A stretch of DNA of 64,000 bases from Ideonella aquatica (GTDB taxonomy: Bacteria > Pseudomonadota > Gammaproteobacteria > Burkholderiales > Burkholderiaceae_C). The translations under genes were made by a program, and so were the position numbers. The stretch covers positions 248,001-312,000 of the forward strand of contig NZ_JAGQDE010000003.1 of assembly GCF_018069755.1 (NCBI RefSeq). Direction: 5' to 3'. Shown piece after piece: positions 10,629-33,842 of this stretch (its first letter is position 1; every line of letters begins with the position of its first letter). The notes under the pieces were generated by a model. It was given only the letters and a program-made list of their open reading frames with translations, was not told where the DNA came from and made no database searches.

Positions 10629-12182
10629 ATGCCCTTGAGAACCCTGTCCTCGCTTGGCGTGATCGCCCGCTTGACGCTGGCCGTCGGCGTGCTGCTGGCC
10701 GTGCTGGCCGCCAATGCCGGTCTGAACCTGTGGCAGCAGTCGCAGACAGCCACGATGATGGCCGGACTGGCCGCGCAGTCCGACAAGCTGCGCCTGGTCG
10801 ACCGCTGGGCCGCGCTGTCCGAGTCCGCCTCGGTGCGCATCATGGCGGTCAACAAATCGGGTGATGAGGCCATCTCGGCCCTGTTCGGTCCGGAGATCGG
10901 CCCCAAGGTGAAGGAGGTCGGCGAGCTGTTCCGCCAGATCAAGGGCCTGGCGACCCGGCCAGAGGAGCTGGCCTGGTTCGAGCAGATGACGCCCAAGCGC
11001 GAGGCGCTGCTGCAATCGCTCAAGGACATGGCCGAGTACCGGAAGATCGGCGACATGCCCGCTGCCAGCACCATGTTCGACACCGCCTTCATGCCGGCGC
11101 AAAAGGCCTACAACGAACACATCCAGGGCTTTGTGCGGATGCAGCGCGACTACCTGGAGCGCGAAGCCGCCGAGACCGCCGCCCGCGGCCGCCAGCAGGC
11201 CCTGCTGGCGCTCGGCGTGGTCGGACTGCTGGCCGTGGGCGGCGGGGTGCTGGCGGCCACTGTGCTGCGACACATCCGCCGCTCGCTGGGCGAAGCGGTG
11301 GCCGTGGCCCAGGCCGTGGCCGCCGGCGACCTGAGCCACCCGGTGACCGTGCGGGGCCGCGACGAATTCGGCACCCTGATGCGGGCCCTGGCCGAGATGA
11401 CCGGCTCGCTCGAGCGCATCGTCGGCCAGGTGCGCCAGGGCACCGACAGCATCGCCACCGCCTCCGCCGAGATCGCCCAGGGCAACAACGACCTCTCGCA
11501 GCGCACTGAGCAGCAGGCCGGCAATGTGCAGGCCGCCGCGTCGGCGATGGACCAGATCACGGTGTCGGTGCGGCAGAACGCCGAGCACGCCCGCCAGGCC
11601 AATGCCCTGGCCCAAGCGGCCAGCGAGGTGGCCCAGCGCGGCGGCGAGGCCGTGGCCCGCGTGGTCGACACCATGGGCCAGATCAACACCGCGTCACGCC
11701 GCATCGAGGAGATCATCGGCGTGATCGACGGCATCTCGTTTCAGACCAACATCCTGGCCCTGAACGCCGCGGTCGAGGCGGCGCGCGCCGGCGAGCAGGG
11801 CCGCGGCTTTGCCGTGGTGGCCGGCGAGGTGCGCAGCCTGGCGCAGCGATCGGCCAACGCGGCCAAGGAGATCAAGGACCTGATCGCCGACTCCACCGAC
11901 AAGGTGCGGGTGGGCAGCGAGCAGGTCGAAGGGGCCGGCCGCACCATGGACGAGATCGTCGACTCGGTGCGGCGCGTCAGCACGCTGGTGTCGGAAATCA
12001 CGCAGGCCACGGCCGAGCAGGACAGCGGCATCGCCAGCGTCGGCCAATCGGTCAGCGAGATCGATCAGATGACGCAGCAGAACGCCGCCCTGGTGGAGCA
12101 GGCGGCGGCTGCGGCCGAGTCGATGCGCCGGCAGGCGCAGGAGCTGGAGCAGGCGGTGGCGGTGTTCCGCGTCGGACGCTGA
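10629..12182 (+). CDS. Methyl-accepting chemotaxis protein, orphan
   Basis: A 517-residue transmembrane chemoreceptor. Transmembrane helix 1 spans about residues 10-32, followed by a periplasmic four-helix-bundle-type domain (about 33-190). Transmembrane helix 2 (about 190-213), a HAMP domain and the cytoplasmic signalling coiled coil follow. The kinase-contact hairpin ([20 protein letters not shown]) is intact. The C terminus ends AVFRVGR, with no CheR-tether tail. Unlike the four receptors of the che operon it stands alone on the plus strand, convergent with metG. I found no convincing sigma-28 site upstream. Ligand unknown. Confidence 0.92.
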   Translation: MPLRTLSSLGVIARLTLAVGVLLAVLAANAGLNLWQQSQTATMMAGLAAQSDKLRLVDRWAALSESASVRIMAVNKSGDEAISALFGPEIGPKVKEVGELFRQIKGLATRPEELAWFEQMTPKREALLQSLKDMAEYRKIGDMPAASTMFDTAFMPAQKAYNEHIQGFVRMQRDYLEREAAETAARGRQQALLALGVVGLLAVGGGVLAATVLRHIRRSLGEAVAVAQAVAAGDLSHPVTVRGRDEFGTLMRALAEMTGSLERIVGQVRQGTDSIATASAEIAQGNNDLSQRTEQQAGNVQAAASAMDQITVSVRQNAEHARQANALAQAASEVAQRGGEAVARVVDTMGQINTASRRIEEIIGVIDGISFQTNILALNAAVEAARAGEQGRGFAVVAGEVRSLAQRSANAAKEIKDLIADSTDKVRVGSEQVEGAGRTMDEIVDSVRRVSTLVSEITQATAEQDSGIASVGQSVSEIDQMTQQNAALVEQAAAAAESMRRQAQELEQAVAVFRVGR

Positions 12183-12185
12183 GCG

Positions 12186-14231
12186 TCAGCGCACGCGCAT
12201 CCCGGGCTGGGCGCCCGGGAAGGGCTCGAGCACGAAGATGCCCGGGTGGGCCTTCTCGTCGGCGTGGCTGGCGGCCAGCACCATGCCTTCGCTGACGCCG
12301 AACTTCATCTTGCGCGGCGCCAGGTTGGCCACCATCACGGTGAGCTTGCCTTCCAGGTCCTCAGGGCGGTAGGCGCTCTTGATGCCGGAGAAGACATTGC
12401 GGGTGCGTCCCTCGCCCACATCCAGCGTCAGACGCAGCAGCTTGTCGCTGCCCTCCACGTGCTCGGCCTTGACGATCTTCGCGATGCGCAGATCGACCTT
12501 GGTGAAGTCGTCTATTCTGATCTCGGGCGCCAGATCCTCGCCGCCGGGCACCACCTTCGGCGCCGGCGGCGGGGCCAGCAGCTCGTCCAGCAGCTTGGCG
12601 TCCACCCGTTGCATCAGGTGCTTGTACTCGCCGATGACATGGCCGCCCAGCGAGCGCGCCGCGTCGGCGAAGGCGAAAGGCTCGACCTTCAGGAAGCCTT
12701 CGACCTGGGCCACCAGCGCCGGCAGCACCGGCTTCAGGTAGATGCTCAGCAGGCGGAAGGCCTCGATGCAGGTGCTGCAGACATCGTGCAGCGCAGCGTC
12801 GGCGCCGTCCTTCTTGGCCAGCTCCCAGGGCTTGTGGGTGTCGACGTACTCGTTGACCTTGTCGGCCAGCGCCATGATCTCGCGCAGCGCCTTGCCGAAT
12901 TCGCGCTCCTCGTACAGCGCCTCCACGGCACTGCGGTGCGCGCGCAGGGTATCCAGCAGCGTGCGGCCTTCGACGCCCAGGTCGGCGCTCAGGCGCCCGC
13001 CAAAGCGCTTGCTGAGGAAGCCCGCGGCGCGGCTGGCGATGTTGATGTACTTGCCCACCAGGTCGGCATTGACGCGGGCGATGAAGTCATCGGGGTTGAA
13101 GTCGATGTCCTCCACCCGGGCGTTGAGCTTGGCGGCGATGTAGTAGCGCAGCCACTCGGGGTGCATGCCCAGCTCCAGGTACTTCAGCGGGCTGATGCCG
13201 GTGCCGCGGCTCTTGCTCATCTTCTCGCCGCCATTGACGGTGATGAAGCCGTGCACGTTCACCTTGTCCGGCGTCTTGCGGCCGCTGAAGTGCAGCATCG
13301 CCGGCCAGAACAGGGTGTGGAAGTAGGTGATGTCCTTGCCGATGAAGTGCACCTGCTCCACCGCCGGGTCGCGGAAGAAGGCGTCGTAGTCCAGGCCCTT
13401 CTTGCCGAAATAGTTCTTCAGCGAGGCCAGGTAGCCGATCGGCGCGTCCAGCCAGACGTAGAAGTACTTGCCCGGCGCATCCGGGATCTCGATGCCGAAG
13501 TAGGGCGCGTCGCGGCTGATGTCCCAGTCGCCCAGGCCGCCCTGGCCCTGCTCGTCCTTGGCGAACCACTCCTTGATCTTGTTGAGCACCTCGGGCTGCA
13601 GGCGGCCCGGCTCATGGGTCCACTGCTCCAGGAAGCTCACGCAGCGCGGGTCGGACAGGCGGAAGAAGTAGTGGTCCGAGGTCTTCAGCACCGGCGTCGC
13701 ACCCGACAGTGCCGAGTACGGGTTCTTCAGCTCGGTGGGCGCGTAAACCGCGCCGCAGACCTCGCAGCTGTCGCCATACTGGTCCTTGGCGCCGCACTTG
13801 GGGCACTCGCCCTTGATGAAGCGGTCGGGCAGGAACATGCCCTTGTCGGGGTCGAAGAACTGCTCGATCGTCTTCACGTCGATCAGGCCGTTGTCGCGCA
13901 GGCCGCGGTAGATGTCCTGCGCCAGCTGATGGTTCTCGGGCCCGTCGGTCGAGTGCCAGTTGTCGAAGCTGATGTGAAAGCCGTTCAGGTACTGCGGCCG
14001 GCCGGCGGCCACCTCGGCGACGAACTGCTGCGGCGTCTTGCCGGCCTTCTCGGCGGCGATCATGATCGGCGCGCCATGGGCGTCGTCGGCGCCGACGAAG
14101 TGCACTTCGTGGCCCTTCATGCGCTGCGCCCGCACCCAGATGTCGGCCTGGATGTACTCCATCATGTGCCCGATGTGGAACGGGGCGTTGGCGTAGGGCA
14201 GGGCGGTGGTGACGAAGAGCTTGCGGGTCAT
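12186..14231 (-). CDS. metG: Methionyl-tRNA synthetase
   Basis: Charges tRNA-Met with methionine in the cytosol. The 681-residue protein has the class I signatures HIGH (residues 19-22) and KMSKS (in GEKMSKSRG). The zinc knuckle [18 protein letters not shown] places it in the MetG1-type, zinc-containing group. The C terminus (about 575-681; [20 protein letters not shown]) is the dimerising tRNA-binding OB-fold found in the long form, as in E. coli. Full length, and the start at 14231 fits the conserved [19 protein letters not shown]. Confidence 0.97.
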
Positions 14232-25842: not shown

Positions 25843-27990
25843 TCAGTGGCGCGAGCGTCGGACCAGCGCGCCCACATCCAGGATCAGCGCCACGCGGCCG
25901 TCACCCATGATGGTGGCGCCCGAGACGTCGTTGACCTTGCGGTAGTTGGCCTCGAGGTTCTTGACCACCACCTGCTGCTGGCCGAGCAGTTCGTCGACCA
26001 GCAGGGCGACGCGGCCGCCCTCGGCCTCGACCACCACCATGATGTTGGAGACGTTGTCGAACTCGAAGCGGGGCACGTCGAAGACGCGCTCCAGGTCGAT
26101 CACCGGCATGAACTCGTCACGCACCTCGACCACGCGGCCGGTGCCGCCGATCGTCTTGATCATGGTCTTCTCGACCTGGAAGGACTCGACCACCGAGGAC
26201 AGCGGCAGGATGTAGACCTCCTCGCCGACACCGATGCTCATGCCATCCATGATGGCCAACGTCAGTGGCAGGCGCACCCGCACACTCATGCCGTAGCCCT
26301 CGGCCGAGTCGATCTCGACCGAGCCGCCCAGTGCGGTGATGTTCTTTTTCACCACGTCCATGCCGACACCGCGGCCGGAGACGTCGGTCACCACCTCGGC
26401 GGTGGAGAAGCCCGGCGCGAAGATCAGGTTGTAGACCTCGCCGTCGGTCAGGCTGTCGGGGGCGTCGATGCCGCGTTCGCGGGCCTTGGCCAGCAGCTTG
26501 GCGCGCGACAGGCCCTTGCCGTCGTCACGCACCTCAATGACGATCGAGCCGCCCTGGTGCGAGGCGACCAGGGTGATCGTGCCGTGTTCGGGCTTGCCCT
26601 TGGCCAGGCGCTCGGCGGGCAGCTCGATGCCGTGGTCGCAGCTGTTGCGCACCAGGTGGGTCAGCGGGTCGGTGATCTTCTCGACCAGGCCCTTGTCCAG
26701 CTCGGTGGCTTCGCCCTGCGTGACCAGCTCAACCTTTTTGCCCAGCTTGCTGGCCAGGTCGCGCAGCATGCGCGGGAAGCGGTTGAAGACCATCGACATC
26801 GGAATCATCCGGATCGACATCACCGCTTCCTGCAGATCGCGGGTGTTGCGCTCCAGATCGGTCAGCCCGGAGAGCAGCTGCTGGCTGAGCTGCTGGTCGC
26901 TGTCGCGGCTGTTCTGGGCCAGCATGGCCTGGGTGATGACCAGCTCGCCCACCAGGTTGATCAGCTGGTCGACCTTCTCCACCGACACCCGCAGCGTGGA
27001 CGAATCCAGGCCCTGGCCGGCGTTCTTGGACTCGGCCTTGGGCGCTGCCGGCTTCGGTGCGACCGGGGCGGCGGCCGCCGCGACCGGTGCGGCCGGGCTG
27101 GTCGGCTCGGCGGCTGCCGCAGGTGCGCTGGCCCCGGGCGAGCCCGGGGCGTCGTCGAAGAAACCGTAGCCGGGGTCCACCGCCGGTGCAGCGGTCTCGG
27201 CGGGCGCGCCGGGGTTGCCGTCATGGAAGCCATAGCCCGGACCCAGCGGCTGCAGCTGCATGCGCTCGCGCGCCACGTGGAAGGTGAACAGGTCGAGCAG
27301 GTCGTCGTCGCTGCTCGCCGTGGTGATCTTGAAGCGGCGCATGCCGTCGGCGTCGCGGCCGGCGTCCAGCGGCTCGATGCTGCCCAGGTCGGTGATTTCC
27401 TTGAACAGCTCGGCCAGGTTGTCGGCCTGTGCGGGGTCGTCCAGCGGACCGACGGTCAGCTCCAGCGTGCGCACCGAGGGGCCCGCCGCGGCCACAGGGG
27501 CCGGCACGGCGGTGACCGGCGCGACCGGGGTTGGCGCAGGTGCCACGGCGGCCGGGGGCGCGCCGCCGTCGGCCAGCGCGCGGATGTGGGCGACCAGGTC
27601 GCGGGTGTCCAGGGCCTCGCCGGCGCCGCCGGCCTGGTGACGGGCGAGCAGGCTCTTGAGCGCATCGCCGGCCTGCAGCAGCACGTCGACCATGGCCGTG
27701 GTGGGCGTCAGCTCGTGGCGGCGCAGCTTGTCCAGCAGCGTCTCCATCTGGTGGGTCAGCTCGGCCACGTCGTTGAAGCCGAAGGTGGCGGCGCCGCCCT
27801 TGACCGAGTGGGCGCAGCGGAAGATGGCGTTGAGTTCCTCGTCGTCGGCGGCGGTGACGTCAAGCTCGAGCAGCTTCTGCTCCATCAGCTCGAGGTTCTC
27901 GCCGGCTTCTTCAAAGAAGACCTGGTAGAACTGGCTCAGGTCGATGCCGGCGCCGGACTGTCCGGATTCGTGGTGCATGGTGTCGGCCAT
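25843..27990 (-). CDS. cheA: Chemotaxis histidine kinase CheA
   Basis: The central kinase of chemotaxis; 715 residues. P1 (Hpt) carries the phospho-accepting His61 in [15 protein letters not shown]2-like response-regulator docking region (about 155-240) follows, then a long Ala/Pro linker. P3 dimerisation ([17 protein letters not shown]), the P4 ATPase with its N box ([12 protein letters not shown]) and G boxes ([17 protein letters not shown]), and the P5 CheW-like domain complete it. It lies between the cheY-type gene (52 bases upstream) and the MCP genes. No cheR, cheB or cheD gene is in the window. Confidence 0.97.
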
Positions 27991-28042: not shown

Positions 28043-28405
28043 TCAGCGGATGACCTTCCCGATCACCTCGATCAACTTGGCGGGGTCGAAGGGCTTGACC
28101 AGCCAGCCGGTGGCGCCCGCTGCGCGGCCGGCCTGCTTCATCTGGTCGCTGGACTCGGTGGTCAGGATCAGGATGGGCGTGCCCTTGAACTTGGGGTTCT
28201 CGCGCAGCTTCTTGACCAGGCTGATGCCGTCCATGCGGGGCATGTTCTGGTCGGTCAGCACCAGGTTGAAGTCGCGCTGGTTGGCTTTCTCCCACGCGTC
28301 CTGGCCGTCCACCGCCTCGACGACGTTGAAACCGGCGTTCTTCAGCGTGAACGACACCATCTGGCGCATCGAGGGAGAGTCGTCAACGGCAAGGATCGAG
28401 TGCAT
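28043..28405 (-). CDS. CheY-type single-domain response regulator (first copy)
   Basis: A 120-residue stand-alone receiver domain. The active site is complete: Asp8/Asp9, phospho-acceptor Asp52, Thr82 and Lys104. Trp101 stands where CheY has its switch Tyr, one difference from the copy at 33444, so its binding to FliM may differ. Encoded between the CheZ-like gene and cheA in the che operon, it is presumably phosphorylated by this CheA. It may act as a second output or as a phosphate sink. Confidence 0.93.
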   Translation of the reverse strand: MHSILAVDDSPSMRQMVSFTLKNAGFNVVEAVDGQDAWEKANQRDFNLVLTDQNMPRMDGISLVKKLRENPKFKGTPILILTTESSDQMKQAGRAAGATGWLVKPFDPAKLIEVIGKVIR

Positions 28406-28448: not shown

Positions 28449-28916
28449 TCAGAAGAGGTCGATGGACCCGGCGTCCATCTCGTCCTGGGTCACGGGATTG
28501 GGGCGGCCAGGGCCTTCCTCGACGATGGTCTCGCCTTCGGGGTCCTCGCCCATCGCCTCGGCGGCGATGCGGTCGGCGCAGTTGCGCAGCCGACGGTGGG
28601 TGTGGGCAATCAGTTGCGTGGCCATGTCGTGGAACTGCAGCGCGGTGATCGCGCCGGCCAGTTCGGTCATGGCCTGGTTGAGGGCGCCGTCGTCGTCGCC
28701 ACCCTCGGCCAGGATGGCCAGGTCGCGCAGCACGTGCTTGATGCGGTCGGTGGCACCGTAAAAGTGCCCCGACAGCGTCTCGCTGGCGTCGTCGAGCAGA
28801 CGTTGCAGGCGCTCCAGGTCGTTGCTGGCCACCATCAGGTGGTCCTGCAGGTCCGCGGCCATCAGCAGCGGAAGGGCAGCGCCGGGGTCCGGTGGCGAGG
28901 TCTCGTTGAGTTGCAT
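28449..28916 (-). CDS. CheZ-like protein, predicted CheY-phosphate phosphatase
   Basis: A 155-residue, mostly helical protein at the head of the che operon. It is too short and diverged to be a standard CheZ, but the helix LQFHDMATQLIAH (residues 93-105) lines up with the CheZ catalytic helix (DFxDLTGQV). It keeps the catalytic Asp (Asp97) and the Gln four residues later (Gln101). An acidic linker then leads to a hydrophobic C-terminal tip (DAGSIDLF) placed where CheZ has its CheY-binding peptide. The start at 28916 has GGAA 5 bases upstream; 28940 is an alternative. Function is inferred, not established. Confidence 0.7.
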   Translation of the reverse strand: MQLNETSPPDPGAALPLLMAADLQDHLMVASNDLERLQRLLDDASETLSGHFYGATDRIKHVLRDLAILAEGGDDDGALNQAMTELAGAITALQFHDMATQLIAHTHRRLRNCADRIAAEAMGEDPEGETIVEEGPGRPNPVTQDEMDAGSIDLF

Positions 28917-28991
28917 CGGCGTTCCACGCGTGTCTGGCATGGGTGGGAGGCCCCCGAGGTGGCGGTCGCCATCCGGGGAGTTGTCATGGAT

Positions 28992-29019
28992 TCTTCGGCA
29001 GCACCGGGCCAGGTGTTGC
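28992..29019 (-). promoter_or_regulatory. Predicted sigma-28 promoter of the che operon
   Basis: On the minus strand, GCAA, 16 bases, then GCCGAAGA. This matches the late flagellar promoter pattern seen six more times in the window. It lies 76 bases ahead of the first che gene start. Confidence 0.5.
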
Positions 29020-29102
29020 GTCAATGACCCCGGCATTCCGACCGTATTTCGCACGACAGGGAGGCTCAACCCGCCAGCCCGGGCTGGGCCATACTTGCGG
29101 GT

Positions 29103-31780: not shown

Positions 31781-32350
31781 TCAGAATCCGAGCGAGGCCA
31801 GCAGGTCGTCCACGTCGTCCTGTTGCAGCGCGCGGTCAGGCACCTGCACGCCGGCGAGCTCCTCGGTGGCGCCGCTCATGGCGCTGACCGGATCGGGCAG
31901 GTCGCCGTCGGCCAGCACGTGCTTGAGCTCGTCCTCGACGCGGAACAGGATCTTCATGACCTTGCCAATCACCTGGCCGGACAGGTCCTGAAAATCCTGC
32001 GCCAGCATCACATCGGTCAGCACCCGGTTCTGGTCGTCGGCAAAGGCGGCGGCGCTGGCGGCGTAGTCGGCGCACAGCTTCATCATCACGCGCGAGCGGG
32101 CGGTGTCGATCTCGGGCGACTCGGCCAGCCGGCGCATCGCCTCGGCGATCTCCAGGCCACGCCGGCGGACCTCGTCGCAGGCGGGCTTGGCCTCGTCGAT
32201 CAGGGCCAGCACGCGGGTGGCCGCCTGCTCGGTCATCTTGCCGACGTACTCCAGGCGCTCGCAGGCGTCGGGCACCTCGCGGACGGCCTGGCGCAGCTCG
32301 GGCTTGACCCAGGTTCCCGTGGCGGCATGAAGGGAGGGATCGGGCAGCAT
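31781..32350 (-). CDS. cheZ2: CheZ paralogue (second copy)
   Basis: A 189-residue protein of the CheZ phosphatase family, which dephosphorylates CheY. The catalytic helix MLAQDFQDLSGQVIGKV contains Asp122 and Gln126, the residues that position Mg and the attacking water. The C-terminal peptide DDVDDLLASLGF is the CheY-anchoring motif. The first 30 residues differ from the neighbouring CheZ, while the catalytic helix and tail are strongly conserved. It is the last gene of the motA-motB-cheY-cheZ run, after an unknown gene. Confidence 0.88.
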   Translation of the reverse strand: MLPDPSLHAATGTWVKPELRQAVREVPDACERLEYVGKMTEQAATRVLALIDEAKPACDEVRRRGLEIAEAMRRLAESPEIDTARSRVMMKLCADYAASAAAFADDQNRVLTDVMLAQDFQDLSGQVIGKVMKILFRVEDELKHVLADGDLPDPVSAMSGATEELAGVQVPDRALQQDDVDDLLASLGF

Positions 32351-32403: not shown

Positions 32404-32775
32404 TCAGTCCGGGCGCAGGAAGGGCATCGGCGACTGTCGCCGCGCACCGTTCTTGCGGCTGCGGTGCACCGCTTCCAGGCCGTCACGGCCGCCGTTGAGC
32501 AGGCCGTTGACCAGGCCCAGCACGTCGTCGACGCTCAGCGCCGCCACTGCGGGGTGGTAGCGCTGGATCGCGGCGGCCAGGCTGGCGCGCGGCACACCTT
32601 GGTGCGTGGCGCAGACCAGCAGCACCGCCTCGAACAGCTCGGGCACCTCGTGGCAGATCCAGCGGATCCGCCGCAGGCACTCGACCGGGCTGCCCGCCTG
32701 GCGCGGCAGCAGCCAGTGCGGCGCCTCGTCGGCGTGCAAGGCGGTGTCGTCAGCGGCGTGCGCCTCGGTGATCAC
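32404..32775 (-). CDS. Unknown protein between the two cheZ genes
   Basis: A 123-residue protein that I cannot assign. No signal peptide or membrane span; the central part (CLRRIRWICHEVPELFEAVLL) looks helical and amphipathic, and the basic tail HRSRKNGARRQSP is unusual. It starts 7 bases after the cheZ stop, so it is almost certainly translated from the cheZ transcript, and it is followed 53 bases later by cheZ2. Codon use is like its neighbours. Confidence 0.68.
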   Translation of the reverse strand: MITEAHAADDTALHADEAPHWLLPRQAGSPVECLRRIRWICHEVPELFEAVLLVCATHQGVPRASLAAAIQRYHPAVAALSVDDVLGLVNGLLNGGRDGLEAVHRSRKNGARRQSPMPFLRPD

Positions 32776-32782
32776 GGCGGCC

Positions 32783-33415
32783 TCAGAAGCCCAGGCTGGC
32801 CAGCAGGTCGTCGACCTCGCCCTGGTCGGCCACCACGTCGGTGCGGCCTTCCGGTGCGACCACCGGGCCTTGCAGCACGGCCGGATCGACCTTGTCGCGC
32901 TGCTCGGGCGGCACCACCTGCAGCAGCAGCTTGACGAGGCTGTCCTCCAGGTCGTTGGCCAGGGTCACCACCTTGGCCACCACCTGGCCGGTGAGGTCAT
33001 GGAAATCCTGGGCCAGCATGATGTCGGTCAGGTGGGCATCGATGCGGCTGGTGCTGTCCTCGACGTCCTTGACGAAGTTCATCACCCGGCCGGAGGCCAC
33101 CGCGCGCACCGGGTCCTTGACCAGCGCCTCGGCCAGCTCGCGCGTGGCCTGGCTGATGTGGTGGTGATCGGCCTTGGCCTGATCCACCGAGTTCAGCACC
33201 TTGTTGGCGGCATCGGCCGTCTTGTTGGCAATGTAGTTCAGGCGGCTGCGCGCATCGGGCAGGCCGTCGGCGGCCACCTGCAGCTTGGGCATCACACCCA
33301 GCTGCTGCATCGTGTCGTGCAGCAGCCGGGTGATCGAGCCCAGCTGCTGGAACACCTCGGGCGATACCGTCAGTGGCTCGGTGGGGGCCAGCGTGGTCAG
33401 ATCTTCCATCTTCAT
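32783..33415 (-). CDS. cheZ: Chemotaxis phosphatase CheZ
   Basis: Dephosphorylates CheY-P. The 210-residue protein matches E. coli CheZ (214) in length and layout: N-terminal helices, the long catalytic hairpin with MLAQDFHDLTGQVVAKV (Asp140, Gln144), a flexible linker, and the C-terminal CheY-binding peptide EVDDLLASLGF. GGGAG lies 6 bases ahead of the ATG at 33415. It follows cheY directly (28 bases), the usual order in FlhDC-type bacteria. Confidence 0.95.
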   Translation of the reverse strand: MKMEDLTTLAPTEPLTVSPEVFQQLGSITRLLHDTMQQLGVMPKLQVAADGLPDARSRLNYIANKTADAANKVLNSVDQAKADHHHISQATRELAEALVKDPVRAVASGRVMNFVKDVEDSTSRIDAHLTDIMLAQDFHDLTGQVVAKVVTLANDLEDSLVKLLLQVVPPEQRDKVDPAVLQGPVVAPEGRTDVVADQGEVDDLLASLGF

Positions 33416-33443
33416 GGGACGCTCCCGTGGGTGGAGGAGGGGG

Positions 33444-33842
33444 TCAGGCCGGCGTGGCCAGCTTCTGCAGGATCTTCTGGACCTTCTCTTCCAGCGTCGC
33501 CTTGGTGAAGGGCTTGACGATGTAGCCGGCCGCACCGCTCTGCGCGGCCAGGACGATGTCCTCCTTGCGCGCTTCGGCGGTGACCATCAGCACCGGCAGC
33601 TGCTTCAGGCCGTCGTCGGCCTTGATGGCCTTGAGCAGCTCGAAGCCGTTCATGTTGGGCATGTTGATGTCGCTGACAACGAAGTCGAAGCGGGCGTTCT
33701 TCAGCATGTTGAGCGCCACCTGGCCGTCTTCGGCCTCTTCGACGTTGTTGCAGCCCATCTCCTTGAGCAGGCCGCGCACGATGCGGCGCATCGTCGAGAA
33801 GTCGTCGACGACAAGGAACTTCAGATCACTGGGATGGCTCAT
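33444..33842 (-). CDS. cheY: Chemotaxis response regulator CheY
   Basis: The signal protein that binds FliM and changes motor rotation. 132 residues, very close to E. coli CheY: Asp13/Asp14, acceptor Asp58 ([12 protein letters not shown]), Thr88, the switch Tyr107 and Lys110 are all present. This is the copy with the canonical Tyr, so it is the better candidate for the motor-binding CheY. Lies between motB and cheZ. Confidence 0.96.

Follow-up and report, generated by a model that had tools for sequence, protein, structure and literature searches.

A soluble relative of putative McpA-like chemoreceptors carrying a CheZ-like Asp/Gln pair, candidate phosphatase of the neighbouring Trp-type CheY in Ideonella aquatica

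The window, i.e., the whole stretch of 64,000 nucleotides of Ideonella aquatica DNA analysed here, carries at 28449..28916, on the minus strand, a gene designated P0001, the translation of which gives 155 residues and a stop. Its ATG at 28916 is a plausible start, since residue 1 begins many of the tblastn matches; a longer ORF with a TTG start (28449-29069) covers the same gene. The stop of P0001 is followed, 43 nt further, by the ATG of a cheY gene (28043..28405, minus strand, PF00072 match), ahead of which a GGAG is found, and then by cheA (25843..27990, minus strand, named from its own sequence and by tblastn synteny). A divergent histidine kinase/NarL pair lies on the upstream side. P0001 is thus located at the head of a che operon, as proposed in the first-pass annotation.

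P0001 contains LQFHDMATQLIAH, with D97 and Q101 spaced by four residues. Translation and row alignments define the motif Q94-F95-H96-D97-M98-A99-T100-Q101 (28614..28637, minus strand), in which the D97 codon is at 28626-28628 and the Q101 codon at 28614-28616. Three helices are predicted by AlphaFold2 (residues 11-69, 77-122 and 144-149), arranged as a hairpin, a loose acidic linker and a short C-terminal helix, with a mean pLDDT of 73.9, no residue at a pLDDT of 90 or above and a pTM of 0.51. The first of them, helix A, corresponds to 28710..28886 and the second, helix B, which carries QFHDMATQ, to 28551..28688, both on the minus strand. The linker (residues 123-143; 28488..28550, minus strand) is acid-rich and predicted to be coil. 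The C-terminal tail PNPVTQDEMDAGSIDLF (28452..28502, minus strand), the last residues of which are NPVTQDEMDAGSIDLF, is conserved in the alignments, includes the short predicted helix 144-149 and is proposed to be a CheY-docking peptide. The Asp/Gln pair at i, i+4, the acidic linker and the SIDLF tip on which the initial description of the protein relied are all recovered, and the long helical hairpin that it took as a criterion is predicted.

CheZ dephosphorylates CheY-P with Asp143 and Gln147, a water molecule attacking the phosphoryl group. Two bona fide CheZ proteins are encoded in the window, cheZ1 (32783..33535, minus strand, PF04344 E 8.3e-59; start 33415 used for modelling) and cheZ2 (31781..32350, minus strand, PF04344 E 2.8e-40), and no further PF04344 CheZ is found above the cut-off in the genome, so that P0001 could rightly be called a third CheZ-like gene. 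cheZ2 sits beside cheZ1, and its match starts at position 26 of the 203 of the profile. Between them lies a 123-aa ORF (32404-32775, minus strand) without any Pfam or NCBIfam match, which is matched in the loci L001, L003, L007 and L021 at 92, 55, 43 and 39%, respectively. For Comamonas testosteroni, the accessible part of PMC6600141 mentions CtCNB_4786 as an unpublished gene whose identity to CheZ is low.

P0001 itself has no convincing family in Pfam or NCBIfam. Neither PF04344 nor the NCBIfam CheZ model matches it at E<=1, whereas the two window CheZ reach 138.8 and 199.3 bits; the MCP signalling domain PF00015 is also absent at E<=1. Neither P0001 nor the 41-row profile built from its close relatives (A1, see below) gave a useful match against PDB sequences, and tblastn on plasmids gave a single weak match. 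The model of CheZ1, used as a control, has its main helices (43-100, 110-167 and 198-207) in the same order as those of P0001, with a mean pLDDT of 54.9, and its fold search returns 1KMI at rank 1 (E 3.4e-5); CheZ1 is also 32% identical in sequence to 1KMI. The P0001 model retrieves generic coiled coils with both Foldseek and VIA-align, CheZ being absent among the best 50 matches listed by each. D97/Q101 align on D180/Q184 of CheZ1, hence on D143/Q147 of 1KMI (as counted on the printed alignment), and the register claimed by the first-pass annotation is thereby upheld. The profile similarity between P0001 and CheZ is marginal: P is 0.0081 with A1, and a wider profile gives an hhalign score of 28.6 (P 0.001), reached by none of 150 column shuffles and by 2 of 150 block shuffles. 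Plain membership of the CheZ family, considered as a candidate identity, was rejected on the missing Pfam/NCBIfam match and this marginal similarity.

P0001 resembles CheZ (PF04344; 1KMI) in that its predicted hairpin bears a DxxxQ on the second helix, the register being F-x-D-[LM]-x-x-Q-x-I, and in having an acidic linker and a C-terminal peptide with QDxxD. P0001 differs in being about 55 to 60 residues shorter and in its tail, which ends GSIDLF, whereas that of CheZ is DDLLxSLGF. The QDEMD...LF tail of P0001, with its conserved short predicted helix, would take the place of the CheY-binding helix of CheZ, and may bind CheY. P0001 thus probably looks and works like CheZ without being a member of the CheZ family.

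A scan of species genomes for P0001 gave 407 candidate stretches, 324 of which encode a relative, and the best 80 were kept as close loci. These come from Burkholderiales genera or from unclassified beta-/pseudomonadotal bins, with one 'Vitreoscilla', and no transmembrane segment passes the hydrophobicity cut-off applied in any of the 81 rows that they make up with the window. In profile A1, composed of the window and 40 of these 80 loci, D97 and Q101 are invariant (41/41 rows), as are P139-S151, L154 and F155. P0001 is a real gene. At E<=0.01, A1 matches 61 of 369 sampled genomes of the class and 101 of 250 sampled genomes of the order (a few genomes being common to both samples), and the remote relatives extracted fall into two sizes, the soluble ones having about 120-230 aa and the long ones about 400 aa.

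A wider set of 145 rows was formed from the window, the 80 close loci, 25 soluble remote relatives and 39 long ones, drawn from the best-scoring profile matches plus a few extra fetched loci. D and Q are present in all 145 rows, none lacking the motif, a count to be read knowing that the regex anchoring the rows itself requires it; the last residue is Phe in 145/145. L112, at first sight an exception, merely had its motif assigned at the wrong place. The set leaves aside L155 and L170, extracted in a wrong frame, both of which have the motif and the LF end; five related QFQD proteins, also D...Q (L175, L176, L178, L192 and L193); five loci fetched as possible diverged CheZ (L174, L177 and L179-L181); and profile matches whose locus was not extracted. 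Over the tabulated stretches, the 64 remote rows agree fully at no positions other than Q94, D97, Q101 and the two last residues, LF, and 98% of them have a Gly six residues from the end. The final LF is found in 106/106 thinned rows and an [IV][ED]LF end in 142 of the 145, P0001 having Ile. The conservation of D97/Q101 among homologues, which the first-pass annotation proposed to check, is not due to chance. Two of the proteins left aside, L175 (1071-2252, minus strand) and L176 (240-1448, plus strand), both from genome G033, are of about 400 aa, with QFQDRxxQ and an FF end; they lie at places where PF04344 gives matches that stay under the threshold (E values of 3.4e-6 and 6.7e-5), and could represent another DxxxQ group.

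Among the long relatives, PF00015 is found in all 12 of those scanned, and an MCP tip signature (by regex) in 32 of the 39 long rows, 29 of these 32 also having a hydrophobic N-terminal segment; the 39 include some non-receptors, namely two run-on ORFs (L150 and L151) and L190, which is transmembrane and without a hairpin. When the C-terminal arm of the receptors (37 rows) is compared by hhalign with the soluble family (67 rows), P is 4.2e-26 over residues 51-155, i.e., over helix B and the tail. The receptor helix preceding the signalling hairpin (35 rows) aligns with residues 10-72, i.e., helix A, with a P of 6.4e-10 and a score of 58.5, reached by none of 100 block shuffles (maximum 34.2) and none of 100 column shuffles (maximum 16.4). 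Judging from these alignments, both long helices and the tail of P0001 are homologous to the segments flanking the receptor signalling hairpin. As both flanking segments match the soluble family, the soluble protein corresponds to a receptor minus its signalling hairpin.

The geometry is regular. In all 28 receptors that could be measured among the 39 long rows (28/28), exactly 103 residues separate the hairpin tip from the motif Phe that follows it, and the same distance is found in the receptor of L241; the helix A Phe lies 99-115 residues before the tip. In P0001, F52 and F95 are each about 21 residues from the predicted turn (69-77). The difference in length between the receptors and the soluble proteins is thus symmetric about the hairpin. 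A tree of helix B and the tail (73 rows, 62 columns), in which 39 of 70 inner branches are open, gives no order between receptor and soluble forms. L190 (1359-2162, plus strand), in which a hydrophobic N-terminal segment precedes helix A, helix B (here carrying QFQDLAAQ) and the tail, lacks the MCP hairpin and is possibly an intermediate between the two.

All these results bear on whether P0001 could simply be a coiled-coil protein, with a DxxxQ functionally unrelated to that of CheZ or CheT. Its fold matches are indeed generic coiled coils and its direct match to the CheZ profile is marginal. Against this stand the invariance in 145 rows, across two architectures, the fixed 103-residue register and the chemotaxis context, and no relative without D or Q was found at the same operon place among the extracted rows. 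We consider such a coincidence very improbable.

The published work on F7 chemotaxis systems, cited here and below from the accessible parts of the papers, allows the long relatives to be placed. McpA-like receptors are described as occurring only with F7 systems, beside the cluster, with a 24H signalling domain and a transmembrane region (PMC7534058). They are encoded with the F7 cluster and are, according to the available text, not needed for the F7 array (PMC7184735), and Pseudomonas McpA co-localises with the F6 array though its gene is in the F7 cluster (PMC7534058; PMC7184735). The McpA C-terminus, the role of which is described as 'important yet unclear', is presented as highly conserved; the second of its final five residues is a Val, standing where the CheR-binding aromatic would be (PMC7184735). 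Five of the six cheD-bearing regions that we inspected contain a receptor with the motif (L241, L242, L243 with two copies, L245 and L246). In L241 and L242, which are pseudomonad-like, a receptor with LQFQDMSSQ and a GEVELF end is directly upstream of a GATGWLVKPF cheY. In L245 and L246, it is downstream of an apparent cheR-cheD-cheB. These two layouts correspond to stage 2 and stage 1, respectively, of the F7 clusters as far as these are described in the accessible text of PMC7184735. In the genome of L243, the set receptor - Trp-type cheY - cheA is present twice, in tandem (1005-2638 and 10924-12613, plus strand).

From this cluster layout and from the tail, rather than from a comparison with PA0180, we infer that the long relatives are McpA-like receptors of F7 clusters. 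The receptor homology of P0001 is established, and layout and tail point to a soluble, hairpin-less relative of McpA-like receptors (PA0180/CttP, VCA1088). With these it would share both flanking helices, QFxDxxxQ, the [IV][ED]LF end, a gene adjoining cheY-cheA and a tail in which the CheR-binding aromatic is missing, Val or Ile being found in its place here; it differs from them in having neither the transmembrane part nor any of the MCP signalling hairpin. The proposal that P0001 is an undescribed minimal CheZ therefore has to be amended: the invariant Asp/Gln pair, the predicted hairpin and the CheZ register stand, whereas PF04344 and the NCBIfam model are absent and the kin are chemoreceptors. 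The receptor arms are slightly closer to CheZ than the wider profile is (score 30.9, P 2.9e-4, 1/150 shuffles). In the open-access literature searched, we found no report of a phosphatase motif in McpA-like receptors or of a soluble protein of the P0001 type.

The cheY next to P0001 has a Trp, in GATGWLVKP, at the place usually occupied by Tyr, as in the other CheY (GAAGYIVKP); on the printed sequence, its switch residue is W101 and its phospho-acceptor D52. The same cheY is directly downstream in 80/80 close loci by tblastn, with a median gap of 56 nt; the switch residue is Trp in 78 of them, the other 2 being truncated there. In these loci, cheA comes next in 78 and the divergent kinase is found in 79. 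In the 250 sampled genomes of the order, the DNA pattern GW[LIMF]VKPF, a pattern match rather than a gene-by-gene assignment, occurs in 112. Without correction for relatedness, 98 genomes have both the family and the pattern, 3 the family only, one of which (G570) is a broken match, 14 the pattern only and 135 neither. Of the 101 family-bearing genomes, 98 thus have the pattern, and in 90 of the 101 it lies downstream on the same strand, at most 1.5 kb away. Of 28 remote loci of the soluble type, 26 also have a Trp-type receiver no more than 1.2 kb downstream. The pairing with the Trp-type cheY noted at this single locus is thus strong. The gene pairing designates the Trp-type CheY as the presumptive substrate of P0001, and the literature on Comamonas suggests that the system at the P0001 locus is F7.

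The pairing is looser in the receptor loci: among 36, a Trp-type receiver lies within 1.2 kb downstream in 16, a Tyr-type one in 1, and no receiver signature is seen in 19, in part because stage 1 clusters place the receptor at the other end. These 20 of 36 loci without a Trp-type cheY, and the clustering of P. aeruginosa McpA with the F6 array while encoded in the F7 cluster (PMC7534058; PMC7184735), would fit with P0001 being the phosphatase or docking partner of another receiver, either the motor-type CheY (33444-33842) or CheB, and linking F6 and F7 in this way. We find this rather unlikely, given the pairing in all close and nearly all remote soluble-type loci. Moreover, two CheZ are already encoded next to the motor CheY, and L244, a region with a Tyr-type receiver and a CheZ and no Trp-type receiver, showed no motif receptor or other member of the family.

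A presumed equivalent of the Trp-type CheY has been studied in C. testosteroni, where CheY1, adjacent to CheA and with D52 as phospho-acceptor, takes phosphate and loses it fast, and has been proposed to act as a sink (PMC6391922). We presume that CheY1 and the Trp-type CheY of the window are equivalent. As CheY1 is, in the accessible data, fast to lose its phosphate unaided (PMC6391922), a phosphatase would not obviously be needed.

The partner of the tail has also to be considered. The CheD of the same genome (L200, 1402-2226), encoded about 104 kb from P0001 on the same contig, ends GGGSIDLF and P0001 ends DAGSIDLF, the six letters GSIDLF being common to both. Likewise, 14 of the 30 CheD loci listed (L194-L223) have an [IV][ED]LF tail, followed by at most one residue. 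The tails of P0001, CheD and the CheT-like proteins described below likely have a docking partner in common and, by analogy with CheZ, CheY would be our first guess. That the P0001 tail could be a CheR-tether pentapeptide was rejected, as it does not have a W-x-x-F end; three receptors of the window have ends of this type (DDWESF, DDWTTF and GDWETF).

The sharing of the tail with CheD, i.e., its occurrence without a D/Q helix, and its place among the most conserved parts of the close relatives, with P139-S151 invariant, could suggest that P0001 is a non-catalytic scaffold, the tail capturing CheY or another receiver, the hairpin holding it at the array or pole, and D97 and Q101 being structural. 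Yet across the 145 rows D, Q and Q94 vary no more than the tail end does, and they stand in the CheZ register; structure alone would not call for precisely this pair. A role restricted to docking seems to us unlikely.

CheT of Sinorhizobium meliloti offers another point of comparison. According to the accessible part of PMC12654446, it is a small DxxxQ protein with a CheZ-like predicted structure, which acts on one of two CheY and forms a complex with CheR. P0001 is also a small che-cluster protein with DxxxQ; CheT differs in being described from alphaproteobacteria. Thirteen CheT-like alphaproteobacterial rows, picked by motif alone except for L227, which was also picked by place, have [LM]QxxDxxxQ and mostly GDxxLF or FF ends. 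The cheT gene lies before fliF, and L227 (3445-3834, plus strand), which ends DFDFF, precedes a fliF-like ORF; L224 (4682-5053, minus strand), CheT-like by motif, ends KVSLF. Between these rows and the P0001 family, no significant homology is found, the P of 0.0036 being equalled by 5 of 60 shuffles.

P0001 could accordingly be imagined as an adaptation factor, its tail recruiting CheR or CheD in the way CheT complexes CheR, with dephosphorylation by D/Q being secondary, and the motif and GD-type LF/FF ends of the CheT-like loci would go with this. Besides the non-significant homology, none of four P. aeruginosa CheR interacts with the end of McpA, as cited in the accessible part of PMC7184735, which makes CheR a less likely partner of the tail. 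We regard an adaptation role as quite improbable.

We thus favour, as fairly probable, a P0001 that is a McpA-like relative acting as a phosphatase on phosphorylated Trp-type CheY. It would consist of the two hairpin-flanking helices of a receptor, joined by a short turn and followed by the conserved receptor C-terminal tail, and would most likely dimerise into a CheZ-like four-helix bundle. The GSIDLF tail would catch the phosphorylated Trp-type CheY encoded next door, and D97 and Q101 would then enter its active site, allowing water to attack the phosphoryl group as with Asp143/Gln147 of CheZ. P0001 would in this way drain the Trp-type CheY and not the motor CheY, already served by a CheZ of its own.

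A broader proposal, to which we would give slightly less than even chances, is that McpA-like receptors are receptor-phosphatase hybrids, with a CheZ-type site always 103 residues away from the tip and a CheY-docking tail, and that the ancestral F7 CheY has in them the phosphatase it otherwise lacks. In betaproteobacteria, instead of disappearing wholly, the gene could have had its hairpin excised, leaving a free phosphatase, or the receptors could have arisen by insertion of an MCP hairpin into such a phosphatase. The accessible part of PMC7184735 states that, in stage 1-2 organisms, cheZ is included in no systems other than F6, and reports that the mcpA-like gene is lost in stage 3, C. testosteroni being an example of stage 4. 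The sequences suggest that a soluble remnant of the mcpA-like gene stayed after this reported loss.

If this is true, the conserved C-terminus of McpA, which the text available from PMC7184735 terms 'important yet unclear', would gain a concrete job, and a phosphatase would be supplied to the F7 CheY where cheZ belongs to the F6 system. The published stage 3 loss would be amended, the helices and tail persisting beside the same cheY and cheA in the relatives examined. A receptor and an enzyme could then turn into one another as a symmetric coiled-coil hairpin is lost or gained.
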